DNA of 53,432 bases from an uncultured Verrucomicrobiota bacterium. Its GTDB lineage: Bacteria; Verrucomicrobiota; Kiritimatiellia; RFP12; UBA3636. The stretch is from contig CASEAR010000032.1 in NCBI GenBank assembly GCA_949285835.1, positions 1 to 53,432 of the forward strand, written 5' to 3'. Below the pieces are notes generated by a model, which saw only the letters and a program-made list of their open reading frames with translations, was not told the origin of the DNA and did not search any database. The position numbers and the translations under genes are program-made. Of the stretch, positions 273 to 26,156 are shown piece by piece (the first letter of the stretch is position 1; the number at the start of each line of letters is the position of its first letter).

Positions 273-3200
273 ATGTCAGTCCATTGTTTGAGAGGCGGGG
301 AGGCTTTCCCTGAGTTCAGGAGACGTATTCTTGAGAAATCTGTGGCGGATGCCGTTGGATTCGGCGTCGGCGTGGATGCTGTGTTTGTATACTTTCTCAA
401 TGTCGGAGCGGAACCGCCTGCCGGATATATGCGGATGGCATGCGAATTGCTTTCTGCTGGCGAGGACGTTGGGGCGGATGAGGATGCTTTTTATGTGTCT
501 CCGCGCAAGGGAACGATTTCTCCGTGGTCGTCGAAAGCTACCGATATTTTTCGAAATTGCGGTCTTGGGACGGTGCAGCGTGTGGAGAGGGCTGTGCGCA
601 TGGTTGTGCGGCGCAGATCAGATGGCGCTGCATTGACGGTTGAAGAGCTGCGGCCGGCTCTTGTCATCCTGCATGACAGGATGACAGAAGGCGTGTATTA
701 CGAGATGAGCGATTTGTTCGACATGCGCGAACCGGCGCCGGGGCGGGTTTTTGATGTTCTATCTCGCGGCGCAGACGCTCTCCGTGAGGCCAATATTTCT
801 ATGGGGCTTGCTCTTTCAGAGGATGAAATTGAGTATTTGCGTTCCGCCTATACGGAGGCAGGACGGAATCCCACTGACACGGAACTGGTGATGTTCGGAC
901 AGGTTAATTCGGAGCACTGCCGGCACAAAATATTCAATGCCGGATGGGTTGTGGACGGAAAACCGGAGGAGATGTCGCTCTTTTCAATGATAAGAAACAC
1001 ACATAAAGTGCACCCGGAAGGGACACTTGTTGCGTACGCGGATAATTCCGGTGTCGTTGAGGGGTTTGATTCGTTGAGTTTTGACTGTGATCCGGTTTCG
1101 CACAGGTATCGTTTCCGTCAGGATCGCATGGATATCCTGATGAAGGTGGAGACGCACAATCATCCCACTGCCATATCTCCATTCCCCGGTGCGGCCACAG
1201 GCGTTGGCGGAGAGATTCGCGATGAGGCGGCTACGGGGATCGGTTCGAAGTCGAAGGCCGGTATTTGCGGATTTATTGTTTCGCATTTACGTCTTCCCGG
1301 TTACCGGCTCCCGTGGGAGCGTGAAACATCCGCACCTTCGAGGCTTGCGTCGCCCTTGGCCATAATGACGGAAGGGCCGATCGGGGGAGCTTCCTTCGGC
1401 AATGAGTTTGGCCGTCCTCAGCTGTGCGGTTTTTTCAGAACGTATGAGGAGGAGCGCGGCGGCCGGTCATACGGATACAATAAGCCTGTTATGCTTGCCG
1501 GAGGGATGGGTTTTATCCGAAGGATGATGGTTTCCAAGAAGGATATTCCAGCGGGATCCCTTGTTGTGCAGATCGGCGGTCCTGCAATGCGCATTGGTCT
1601 GGGAGGAGGCGCGGCGTCGTCACTCGCTTCGGGCAACAATGCCGAGGAGCTGGATTTTGATTCCGTGCAGCGCGGAAATGCGGAAATGCAGAGGCGCTGT
1701 CAGGAGGTTATAGACGCGTGCGTGGCACTTGGAGACCGCAATCCGATTCTGTCCATACACGATATCGGAGCTGGAGGGCTTTCGAACGGGTGTCCGGAAC
1801 TGATAGAAAAGACAGGCGGGAAATTTGAATTGCGCGCGGTGCACAACGAGGAACCCTCGATGTCTCCCATGGAGATATGGTGCTGTGAGGCACAGGAACG
1901 GTACGTCCTTGCAGTCCGGCCGGAAGACAGATGCTTGTTTGAGAGTCTGTGCAGGAGGGAACGCTGCCCCGTTGCGTTTATAGGCGTGGCAACTGGTGAC
2001 CACAGACTTGTGCTTGAAGACAGCTTTTTCGGCAACAGGCCGATAGATATGGAGGTGGGCGTCCTCCTCGGCAAACCTCCCAGAATGACGCGAAATGTTT
2101 CGCACGTGAGTTCAAACCTTCCCCCGGTAAAAATTCCGGACGGGGTGACGGCTGCGGATGCATTCAAGCGTGTAATACAGCATCCAGCTGTCGCGGATAA
2201 GACATTTCTTGTCACGATTGCGGACAGAAGCATAACGGGGATGGTTTGCCGGGATCAGATGTGCGGCCCTTACCAGCTGCCGGTGGCGGATTATGCGCTT
2301 ACTGCTACGGGGTATACTGACTATACCGGCTCTGCCATGGCTTGCGGCGAGCGCCCACCGGTGGCGGCTGCAGATGCGCCTGCCTCCGGCAGGCTTGCGG
2401 TTACCGAGGCCATTTTAAATATTGCACCGGCCGGCATATCGCGCATAGGTGATATCAAACTTTCGGCTAACTGGATGTGTGCGTGCGGCGAGGACGGAGA
2501 GGATGCTGCGCTGTTCGATACTGTGAAAGCCGTGGGTATGGAGTTTTGTCCAGCCGTAGGAGTATCAATTCCGGTAGGCAAAGATTCGCTCTCCATGCGA
2601 ACCATGTGGAATGATGCGCAGACCGGGGTTCAGAAGAAGCAAATATCTCCGCTCACGCTTGTGGTAAGCGCATTCTCTCCGGTGTCTGATGTCCGCAAGT
2701 CGGTCACTCCGGATTTGAAGAAGGCAGAGTCTGATCTCGTCTTCGTGGATCTTTCTGCGGCAGGAAATCCGCTTGGCGGCAGTATTTTTGCGCAGACATG
2801 GAATCTGTCCGGCAATGATGTTCCTGACGTAAGCGATCCCGTAGAGGTTCGCACTTTTGTGGAGACGTTATGCACTCTTCTGGCGGAAAAAAAGATCCTC
2901 GCTGCGCACGACAGGTCGGATGGCGGGTTGGCGGCCGCGTTGGCGGAGATGGCGATTTCCGGCGGAGTGTCCTGCACCGCGTGTGTAGACAGCCCGGAGC
3001 GTGACGGCGCTCTGGCTGCGATGTTTACGGAGGGGCCGGGGATGGTTCTCCAGACGCCGGCCGGGTATACGGAGTCTGTTGTAGGCAGGTTGCGCGAGGC
3101 CGGGCTGCGTGTCCGCAGGATTGGACAGGTGATCCCGGAGGCGAAGGAAAAGCGTCTCGAAATAACGTATCCGGACGGCGCTTCATTGTTCTCAATGAAG

Positions 3201-23227: not shown

Positions 23228-23779
23228 AGCCCGACAGATAGACCGCAGGTCGGTAATTCCGTAAACAGGAATACCGTTTCATTTACAAGAATCAACCAGA
23301 AAATCCGAGCTCCGGAGGTGCGCTGTGTTATGCCGGATGGGAGTCAGGCCGGGATTCTCCCGACAAGAGAGGCTCTGAGGCGTGCTGCGGATCTCGGTCT
23401 TGATCTTGTGGAAATCAGTCCCAATGCAACCCCTCCGGTTTGCCGTATAATGGACTATGGCAAATTCAAATACGAAGAAGGGCAGAAAAGAAAACTTGCG
23501 CGCAAGAACCAGGTAAAGATTGTCGTGAAGGAGATCAAATTTCATCCAAATGTTGATGAAAATGATTTTCAGATTAAAATGCGCAACATAAGGTCTTTTA
23601 TTAAAGACGGCAACAAAGTGAAGCTTACGCTTCAGTATCGCGGTCGTGAAAATGCGCACCGTGAACTTGGCGAAGAAGTTATAAACAGGGTTTGCCGTGA
23701 GGTGGCGGAATTCGCAGTGATTGAACAGGAACCCAAGCTGATGGGTAAAATGATCAACGCTCTGATTGGCCCCAAATAA
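23225..23779 (+). CDS. infC: Translation initiation factor IF-3
   Basis: The 184-aa protein (E. coli IF-3 has 180) shows the N-terminal RINQKIRAPEVR motif, the LVEISPNATPPVCRIMDYGKF signature, and the C-terminal VKEIKFHP...YRGRENAH region. The factor keeps ribosomal subunits apart and discriminates against non-standard start codons. A rare ATC start would allow the same autoregulation known from the AUU start of E. coli infC. The first standard start in frame (GTG 23318) would delete the conserved N-terminal motif. rpmI and rplT, which usually follow infC, are not here; the next 1.4 kb has no intact gene. Confidence 0.93.
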   Translation: MSPTDRPQVGNSVNRNTVSFTRINQKIRAPEVRCVMPDGSQAGILPTREALRRAADLGLDLVEISPNATPPVCRIMDYGKFKYEEGQKRKLARKNQVKIVVKEIKFHPNVDENDFQIKMRNIRSFIKDGNKVKLTLQYRGRENAHRELGEEVINRVCREVAEFAVIEQEPKLMGKMINALIGPK

Positions 23780-24104
23780 TAGTTTTCCAAGATTTAAATC
23801 GTCCAGCATTTTGACGCATGGTCTGATGTTTTTCTTATGGCGGCATTCTTTGGGTGTCGTCTGCTCATGGTTCCGCAACCGCTTATTTACACGTATGTCT
23901 TATCCAGCAGTCTTCCTGACGGATCTGGTGCACTGCCTGTTTTCCCGGCTTGTTGACGAGAGGTTTTTTCGCTGGCTGTGTGAATGTATTTTGCGGTCAA
24001 AGAGGATTAGGATGGGGAGGGGAACGTTTCAAGCAAAGGTTTCCTTCTTTTTTTTATTCGGCATGACTACGGCTGGCGGATGAAAATTCCGAAGCAGTCT
24101 GGTA
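23780..24104. other. Intergenic region after infC, no supported gene
   Basis: A 105-codon frame runs through here (from 23766) but overlaps the end of infC, is Phe/Arg/Leu-rich, and shows no domain. I looked for ribosomal protein L35 motifs and did not see them. Nothing else is recognisable before the intron remnant. Confidence 0.45.
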
Positions 24105-24599
24105 TGGGGAGGGCGGCAGCATCCGGATAATGGCGCCATCCTTGAGGGTGAATCAGAAGGAAGTCCACAATGAAACGGCAGAAAGCCGGTACGTAGCATG
24201 AAACGCGTATGAGATGTCCTAAATTATCAAAGTCCGGAACCTGTCCGGAAACGCTTCATGCTGATCTGTCGAACACAACCGTGAAAGCCGTGAGCATTAC
24301 GCTGAGAGGTCTGCGTCCCCGCTTAAAGTGGCGCGGCAGAGGTGCCGTGTGATGAGTGAGCGCGTAGAAGCCTGTCAATGGCATAGAGGCGTGTTCAACT
24401 AGCGTGAAGTCTCAAACCGGCCATGAGCAACGGATCCATCGTTCCTATACAGTGAAAGAAGCAAAAAGTCGGTTAGAAATGACCTAATCCAATCTGGATG
24501 GAACAGCGCGGGACTCCGGGGACTTCAATGTGGTGGAGGCTGCTGTTATGGCACCGAAGGGATTTTCTGAGCGTTGCGGTCAGCTTTTGTCAAGGATAG

Positions 24600-24782
24600 T
24601 TACAGCAAGCTTATCATCGGTTTGGCCAGAATCGCGGTGTGGCCGGATCTGATGGCATGAGCACCGCGGAATTGAGAGACCATCTAGTGAAGACCTGCTT
24701 GCAAATCGAAGAATTGCTTTTACAGGAAATACGGCCTTCACGAAACGCTGATTTTCCGATTTTGGTCTGGCATCTTCATTGA
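24600..24782 (+). pseudogene. Fragment of a group II intron reverse transcriptase
   Basis: The 60 codons from 24600 include the run LQQAYHRFGQNRGVAGSDGM followed by STAELRDHL. This is the hallmark N-terminal region (NKGxAGxDGM-T-x-E-L-x-x-x-L) of group II intron-encoded proteins. The frame is closed on the left by TAG at 24597; the preceding bases in another frame (LLSRI) resemble the residues expected just before, suggesting a frameshift. Similarity fades after about 24735, and the frame stops at TGA 24780. The catalytic YADD domain and maturase region are absent. Confidence 0.78.
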
Positions 24783-24811
24783 ATGTGAAGTTGAAAAGTC
24801 TAATATGGAGC

Positions 24812-24853
24812 GGAACCGTTGGATACGAAGCCGTACATTTGGTGTCGTGAGAC
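24812..24853 (+). ncRNA. Possible degenerate group II intron domain V
   Basis: The sequence starting GGAACCG and running through GCCGTAC to GGTGTCGTGAGAC resembles the domain V and linker of bacterial IIB introns by eye. Pairing is imperfect and the catalytic AGC triad is not clearly kept, so it is probably inactive. The bases after it (AAGAT ... GTCTT) could form a domain VI-like stem. Confidence 0.45.
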
Positions 24854-24890
24854 TAAGATAATCTTTTGTTCGATTGAACGTCTTTACATG

Positions 24891-25226
24891 AAAACGGTAG
24901 TTATCCGGTCTAAAGCATAGAGTAATAAAAGCAGTGATTGTACATAGCGATATTGTTGCTAGAGATGGTCGGCATTAGAATGCAGAGGACGAACCGGGCA
25001 GGTATTTTTCCCTTTGAATGCCACACCGGCACGAGGACATGTTTAGCGTTTTTTGGGGGTATATCTTCGCGTCCAATGCGCAGTTATACCGTGAGATGAT
25101 TTGAGTGTGAGCTATTGTAATGTTTTTCTCATCTCAAACAAGTCAGGAATATATTTTTTGTTCGGTGGATTGATACTTGAATCCGGGAGGAGTATTTCAA
25201 TTGATGAGCATACGCTGCGGCTCTGC
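24891..25226. other. Intergenic region, nothing recognised
   Basis: About 335 bases between the intron remnant and the minus-strand BtuF-like gene. Small frames have no family features, and no clear hairpin terminator with a T-tract was found for the minus-strand operon ending at 25227. Confidence 0.4.
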
Positions 25227-26156
25227 TTATTGGGTTAAAATGGTATCAGCAAACGAATCCAGCAATCGGATTACACGTGGACCGGGGACTGCCGCCCAGC
25301 TTCCAGAAATGATTTTGATTTTTCGTTCGGATCCGTTTTTGCGAATTTTGAGATCAGACCATTGATCATAAAATGTTTTAATTTCTTCCGTTGCAAAGCC
25401 GTTTTCGTCTCCCGGAATGATGTCAAATATAATATCCGGGTCGATTTCGCATATTTTGCTCTTATCAAGTTCTGGGCAAACTATATCTCCGGTATAAGCG
25501 TTCGTTCCACCGGCTGCAGAAATGACGTCTGAATAAAAAAGCCCAGGACCGGAGAAAAAAGCTTTTTCAACTTTTTTCTTCTCACGTGCGACACAAACGA
25601 GCACGCGGGGTACAGTTTGAATTTCGTTACGCCGTAAATTTATCGTTTTTAATGACAGGTCAAGATTTGAAATCCACATCTCCGCCTTATCGTATGCTCC
25701 GAATATGTCGGCAATATTCCAAATTGCTGTGCATATTGCGTCAAGGGAAGATGATCCGCACAAAAGTGTTTTTATGTTTTTTTTTCTAAGTTCCGCACAC
25801 AGGGTCTCCTGTCCTGCGCCTGCTATCACGTAGTCCGGAGCGAGGTCAAGTATTTTTTTTATATCAGGACGCATTGCGGGACCGACTGAGCAGATCGAAG
25901 AAGCCTCTTGCGGGAATTTGCATGAATCTGTGACACCTACTAGGTTTGATCCCGCGCCAAGCATATAAACGGATTCGGTAAATGCAGGAGAAAGCGATAT
26001 AACTGAAGGCCGGAGAAATTCTGTCCGGACATGCCTTTCTGTATCTGGACCCGTTATGACGGATTCATCTTTGCTCTTTATGAGGAGCCAGACGATAATG
26101 CATATCATGCATATCGCAAAGGCCGCTATTGCTCTGAGTTTTTTTTTACTTTCCAT
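25227..26156 (-). CDS. BtuF/FecB-like periplasmic binding protein, membrane-anchored
   Basis: The 309-aa protein has one N-terminal hydrophobic segment (about residues 8-27) with no lipobox cysteine, so it is probably membrane-anchored or secreted. The periplasmic binding domain (PF01497 type) is clear: RPSVISLSPAFTESVYMLGA, then LVGVTDSCKFPQEA, VGPAMRPDIKKILDLAPDYVI, and a later AGGTNAY. Homologues bind vitamin B12 (BtuF) or ferric siderophores; the ligand here is unknown. It starts three bases after the stop of an ABC-2-type permease gene, not a BtuC/FecCD-type permease, which is unusual. Confidence 0.82.
   Translation of the reverse strand: MESKKKLRAIAAFAICMICIIVWLLIKSKDESVITGPDTERHVRTEFLRPSVISLSPAFTESVYMLGAGSNLVGVTDSCKFPQEASSICSVGPAMRPDIKKILDLAPDYVIAGAGQETLCAELRKKNIKTLLCGSSSLDAICTAIWNIADIFGAYDKAEMWISNLDLSLKTINLRRNEIQTVPRVLVCVAREKKKVEKAFFSGPGLFYSDVISAAGGTNAYTGDIVCPELDKSKICEIDPDIIFDIIPGDENGFATEEIKTFYDQWSDLKIRKNGSERKIKIISGSWAAVPGPRVIRLLDSFADTILTQ

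Follow-up and report, generated by a model that had tools for sequence, protein, structure and literature searches.

A decayed group IIC intron behind infC in an uncultured Verrucomicrobiota bacterium and the copies that share its reverse transcriptase deletion

Group II introns without an open reading frame (ORF) were described as rare in bacteria in a 2015 review, which named one exception lacking a related protein gene (PMC4424553). In Thermosynechococcus elongatus the TeI3 introns arose by deletion of the ORF and then proliferated in the reduced form (PMC2882425), and a hallmark of group IIC introns is their insertion directly behind intrinsic terminators (PMC4424553, PMC8919778). We found no paper in the open-licence literature that ties these introns to Verrucomicrobia. 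We describe here a fossil intron of known type in a new setting, on a contig of 53,432 nucleotides (the window) from the draft genome of an uncultured member of the phylum, and compare it with its copies in that genome, with relatives in other genomes of the phylum, and with the systems described so far.

The intron remnant behind infC

The initial annotation put a fossil group II intron at 24105-24890, beyond the 3' end of infC. A covariance-model match to the 5' ribozyme domains and a reverse transcriptase (RT) match both uphold the element, while its extent had to be corrected to about 24055-24874; this stretch, on the plus strand, is confirmed as a group IIC intron remnant lying 3' of infC, after a terminator-like hairpin. 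Its parts, with copies named by contig (C32 being the copy behind infC) and a full-length relative in another genome denoted G453, are as follows.

23228..23779, plus strand: infC (translation initiation factor IF-3), the upstream gene; identity read from the sequence, start putative
24014..24055, plus strand: terminator-like hairpin (12 bp, wobble pairs included) with T-run, the insertion target, from a fold of the 60 nt upstream
24055..24874, plus strand: the entire fossil reduced group IIC intron C32, about 820 bp, delimited by the end of homology to C42, C41 and G453
24055..24062, plus strand: damaged 5' end, TATTCGGC, where C42, C57, C45 and C15 have GTGCGCCCGG (copy comparison)
24136..24295, plus strand: domain I core, covariance-model match to RF02001, with a 13-nt gap relative to other copies
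24296..24550, plus strand: remainder of the 5' ribozyme part, ending where the ORF begins; aligned with C41, C42 and G453
24551..24728, plus strand: RT N-terminal remnant, from the start to about residue 60, its frame shifted by a 14-nt deletion near 24602
24727..24728, plus strand: deletion junction common to C32, C41 and C42, from alignment to G453
24728..24805, plus strand: RT C-terminal remnant (..AFTKR*FSDFGLASSLNVKLKS..), from alignment and translation
24812..24851, plus strand: decayed domain V, triad CGC changed to CGT, recognised by homology and not by the Rfam domain V model
24852..24874, plus strand: collapsed domain VI and 3' end (..GTTCGAT; ..CTACTCGAT in active relatives), from alignment

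In the ORF list infC spans 23318-23779, beginning at an internal GTG, and a convergent ORF on the minus strand (25227-26156) lies beyond the intron. The non-coding flanks, 23780-24013 (about 230 bp) and 24875-25226 (about 350 bp), have no other match in the genome. A partial match to the snoZ40 model (23728-23796) scores below the cut-off, overlaps the end of infC and was dismissed as chance.

The match to RF02001 (group II intron D1-D4-3) reaches 43.6 bits, above the Rfam gathering score of 32, with an E of 1.6e-7 across the draft genome, so that the Infernal check proposed for these domains came out in favour of the intron. The domain V-like sequence noticed at the outset holds by homology, with 79% identity in a 42-nt alignment to the domain V, itself slightly under the Rfam cut-off, of an intact intron in genome G172, and not by model, since RF00029 has no match across the window even at E<=5. 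As to the protein, the N-terminal fragment first read from the sequence does lie in frame at 24600-24727, and tblastn with the RT of the full-length relative aligns residues 17-60 to 24597-24728 (50% identity, genome-wide E 7.1e-5). Pairwise BLASTP of the fragment gives 45% over 56 amino acids (E 3e-11), TIGR04416 matches it at positions 4-45 (E 0.006), and a PDB search up to E 10 matches nothing but four group II-type RTs, among them the GsI-IIC RT, all at their N-terminal residues and the best at E 0.017; tblastn against plasmids gave weak matches only, many of them to annotated group II RTs. The 27-residue C-terminal remnant has no match in the PDB search, and its version in C41 aligns pairwise to the C-terminus of the G453 RT (55% over 22 amino acids, E 6e-6). 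C32 thus holds N- and C-terminal remnants only, in place of a complete intron-encoded RT/maturase, and its ribozyme, RT N-terminus and domain V-like pieces follow one another in order on the plus strand, as had been claimed.

Eight copies, their insertion sites and a common deletion

The initial annotation concerned this one locus; the analysis added a family of eight copies, the terminator-targeting IIC type and a shared deletion. RF02001 has six matches in the genome, and searching with a model based on these six brings the number of copies to eight (C42, C45, C57, C32, C41, C15, C88 and C62), of which C41, C42 and C32 alone are matched by a model of the 3' part. Pairwise identity among the copies is about 62-84%, C32 sharing 67-68% of its DNA sequence with two others over about 800 bp, and homology between copies stops at the intron ends, which rules out segmental duplication. 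Their tree is star-like, with terminal branches of 0.06-0.27 (most 0.15-0.27) and mostly very short internal ones (0.01-0.03) whose nodes are weakly supported, and it reads as the probable trace of a burst after which each copy would have decayed on its own. An order-wide search covered the 18 further genomes of this taxonomic family, and none matched the model built from the copies; one of them (G005) has a weak RF02001 match.

The truncated copies C57, C45, C15, C88 and C62, like those at L125 in genome G480 and L127 in genome G420, keep the 5' end and have lost the 3' part. Incomplete reverse transcription predicts the opposite, and protection by the adjoining terminator may explain the pattern, which within this genome stands at five 5'-retaining truncations to none retaining the 3' end and is statistically not firm. 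A second dispersed repeat, with about 67% identity between copies, occurs at L062 152-545, at L065 ~1838-2247 (minus strand) and in part of C57, and on C41 and C45 it lies close to fragments of the intron.

A 5' end can be recognised in seven of the eight copies; it reads GTGCGCCC in C42, C57, C45, C15 and C62 and ATGCGCCC in C88, and all seven, as well as five relatives, have a hairpin and/or T-run immediately 5' of the intron. The upstream genes, whose protein products are named from their sequences, include infC, tsf, clpB and a tRNA gene. By chance, four consecutive T within the last 12 nt are expected at 6% of random positions. The 60 nt upstream of C32 fold at -15.5 kcal/mol, nearly equal to the random mean of -14.6, and its hairpin is absent from the terminator scan, which permits loops of up to 8 nt; the C32 target is marked by position and a run of eight T rather than by folding energy. 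At C45, as at C32, the upstream folding energy does not exceed random expectation, so the argument at these two sites depends on the T-run and on position.

The parent type is represented by the full-length relative, G453:C158, which a phylum-wide search located in another class of the phylum. Its 5' end is GTGCGCCCGG, its domain V scores 45.9 bits (above the Rfam cut-off), and its RT is a 438-residue stretch with RVT_1 and GIIM domains and a TIGR04416 score of 427 bits. Positions 85-781 of C42 align to 3-702 of G453 and positions 780-908 to 1715-1845, and the same gap, about 1.0 kb of RT sequence, is found in C42, C41 and C32, in keeping with the claim that nearly all of the protein gene had been deleted. 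The junction, which rests on the three of eight copies that keep their 3' half (C32, C41 and C42, the other five being without it), fuses RT residue ~60 to the C-terminal ..QAFPKRFFDVLGLISLFD, and in an independent tblastn search the match to the G453 RT ends at residue 58 in C41, 68 in C42 and 60 in C32. One deletion in three copies at unrelated sites indicates that the reduced intron itself spread; descent of the other five copies from the reduced form is presumed.

Decay of the copies and competing explanations

The domain V triad has a catalytic role. It is altered in all three surviving 3' ends (CGT in C32, CTC in C41, CTG in C42; CGC in intact relatives), and RF02001 scores are 29-86 bits in the copies of this genome against 123-149 in several intact relatives. 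C42 retains both the 5' GUGYG and the 3' AY ends; C32 begins with TATTC and keeps the 3' ..CGAT. To judge from its sequence C32 looks dead, with its 5' GUGYG lost, its triad changed from CGC to CGU, its domain VI collapsed to about 23 nt and its frame broken by the 14-nt deletion and further changes, and no copy of the family looks active today. Against a random placement of the changes from the inferred ancestor, ancestral base pairs are kept no better than expected in four of five copies, which we read as neutral decay. C32 kept 33 pairs in domain I against 28.2+-2.1 (P 0.02) in an alignment that leans on structure, an excess that may reflect mutations in part older than its death, or weak constraint. 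A conserved function of the fossils is not supported by this test.

A cognate RT was not found in the draft genome, which is 91% complete. Its sole above-cut-off RT match, on C36, is 29% identical to the parent-type RT, and the C36 intron was rejected as the parent because of this low identity, its position at a contig end and the phage-like genes beside it. That contig (L067, G000:C36, 4325 bases) begins with a group II intron RT and an intact domain V; phage-like genes (peptidoglycan-binding, NlpC-like) come next, and the contig may be foreign to the assembly.

In our assessment these observations are very probably explained by a single deletion of the ORF, after which the reduced IIC intron spread behind terminators, with mobilisation in trans, and its copies decayed. 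A group IIC intron with its maturase/RT would have entered an ancestor of this genome; in one copy an internal deletion of about 1.0 kb from the ORF would have joined the N-terminus of the RT to its C-terminus, leaving D1-D3, DV and DVI; and the reduced intron, spliced and mobilised by the RT of another intron, would have retrotransposed to sites immediately behind the intrinsic terminators of genes with housekeeping roles, infC, tsf, clpB and a tRNA gene among them. Later the driver RT would have been lost, or it is missing from the assembly, while the copies would have decayed independently through point mutations and 3' deletions, C32 ending in its catalytically dead-looking state. Family membership, the common deletion, the position behind terminators and the decay are observed directly; movement by the protein of another intron, as in TeI3, is presumed by analogy, and we infer the loss of the driver RT and the present inactivity of the copies.

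An origin in which full-length introns first occupied each site and lost the RT region independently, with no spread of the reduced form, would accord with the truncated or inactivated state of most intron copies in bacteria (PMC4424553) and with the varied truncation points of the five other copies, but we regard it as improbable: the junction in C32, C41 and C42 is identical within alignment error, the tblastn ends concur, and it is very unlikely that the same 1-kb deletion arose three times independently. A common junction could otherwise come only from gene conversion, which would also have homogenised copies that are now about 70% identical. It is hardly conceivable that the resemblance is fortuitous and that there is no intron here; the failure of Rfam to detect domain V and the weakness of the RT fragment by itself against general models might suggest so, yet chance is excluded by independent matches to D1, to both RT termini and to DV, in the correct order on one strand, and by the DNA identity of C32 to two other copies over most of its length.

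The initial annotation had also raised the prospect that the reduced intron, if still structured, may depend on a maturase in trans. That the remnant still functions, by splicing or as a structured RNA with such a maturase, is very improbable. In its favour are a D1 score that remains above the gathering score, the slight surplus of kept pairs in C32 and the diverged group II RT on C36; but C32 lacks the GUGYG 5' end, its DV goes unrecognised by Rfam and bears the CGT triad, its DVI is down to a few nucleotides, ancestral pairs survive at random levels in four of five copies, and the RT on C36 has just 29% identity to the parent type. The proposal does not suit C32, with its 5' end, DV triad and DVI lost. 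It does suit the ancestor of C32, since the RT deletion common to three copies shows that the reduced form itself spread. A single deletion followed by spread of the reduced intron remains our preferred reading.

ORF-less relatives and described systems

Intact-looking ORF-less relatives occur elsewhere in the phylum. Behind a terminator in genome G172 (99% complete) lies a 611-nt ORF-less IIC intron whose DV and DVI look intact, and the search for an RT in that genome found none (best E 0.11); G374 (86% complete) has two ORF-less IIC copies at different sites, with 94.7% identity across 656 bp, and its assembly shows RT only as broken remnants (C25, C68). Homology between the two G374 copies stops near the intron ends, so they were probably recently mobile. 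The copies in G480 and G420 are 3'-truncated. The positions of the intact-looking introns are:

L222 689-1299 (G172:C2:32188-32798), minus strand: ORF-less intron of G172
L217 from 472 and L218 from 426 (G374:C3 and C113): ORF-less copies of G374

Tentatively, ORF-less IIC introns may represent a recurrent lifestyle in the phylum, marked by RT deletion, spread behind terminators, and persistence or movement without an intact RT of their own; if so, the fossils described here would be the extinct end of such a cycle. The route of ORF deletion followed by spread, described for cyanobacterial introns, is indicated for terminator-targeting IIC introns too, the record here being an extinct, decayed family. 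The intact ORF-less relatives offer systems for testing the splicing and movement of a IIC ribozyme without its own protein, a question that bears on models of protein loss by group II introns on the way to spliceosomal introns.

Compared with bacterial group IIC introns such as B.h.I1 (bacterial-C class), the family shares the D1-D4-3 type of domain I, a related RT, insertion directly behind intrinsic terminators (PMC4424553, PMC8919778) and, in the intact relatives of C32, the GUGCG 5' end and the CGC triad of DV; C32 differs in that its RT is down to about 60 plus 25 residues and that it has neither the 5' end nor an intact DV or DVI. The likeness to TeI3 lies in one ancestral internal ORF deletion with identical breakpoints, flanked by N- and C-terminal RT remnants, and in proliferation of the reduced form, which in TeI3 is mobilised by the protein of a related intron. 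Unlike the present family, TeI3 is mobile today with driver proteins and is not of the terminator-targeting IIC type, whereas the copies of this genome differ from one another by about 30% and have decayed, with no driver found in the draft. C.te.I1 of Clostridium tetani is likewise an ORF-less bacterial group II intron in a genome without a related protein gene (PMC4424553), but it self-splices in vitro where C32 looks dead, and its better parallels are the intact ORF-less introns of G172 and G374.
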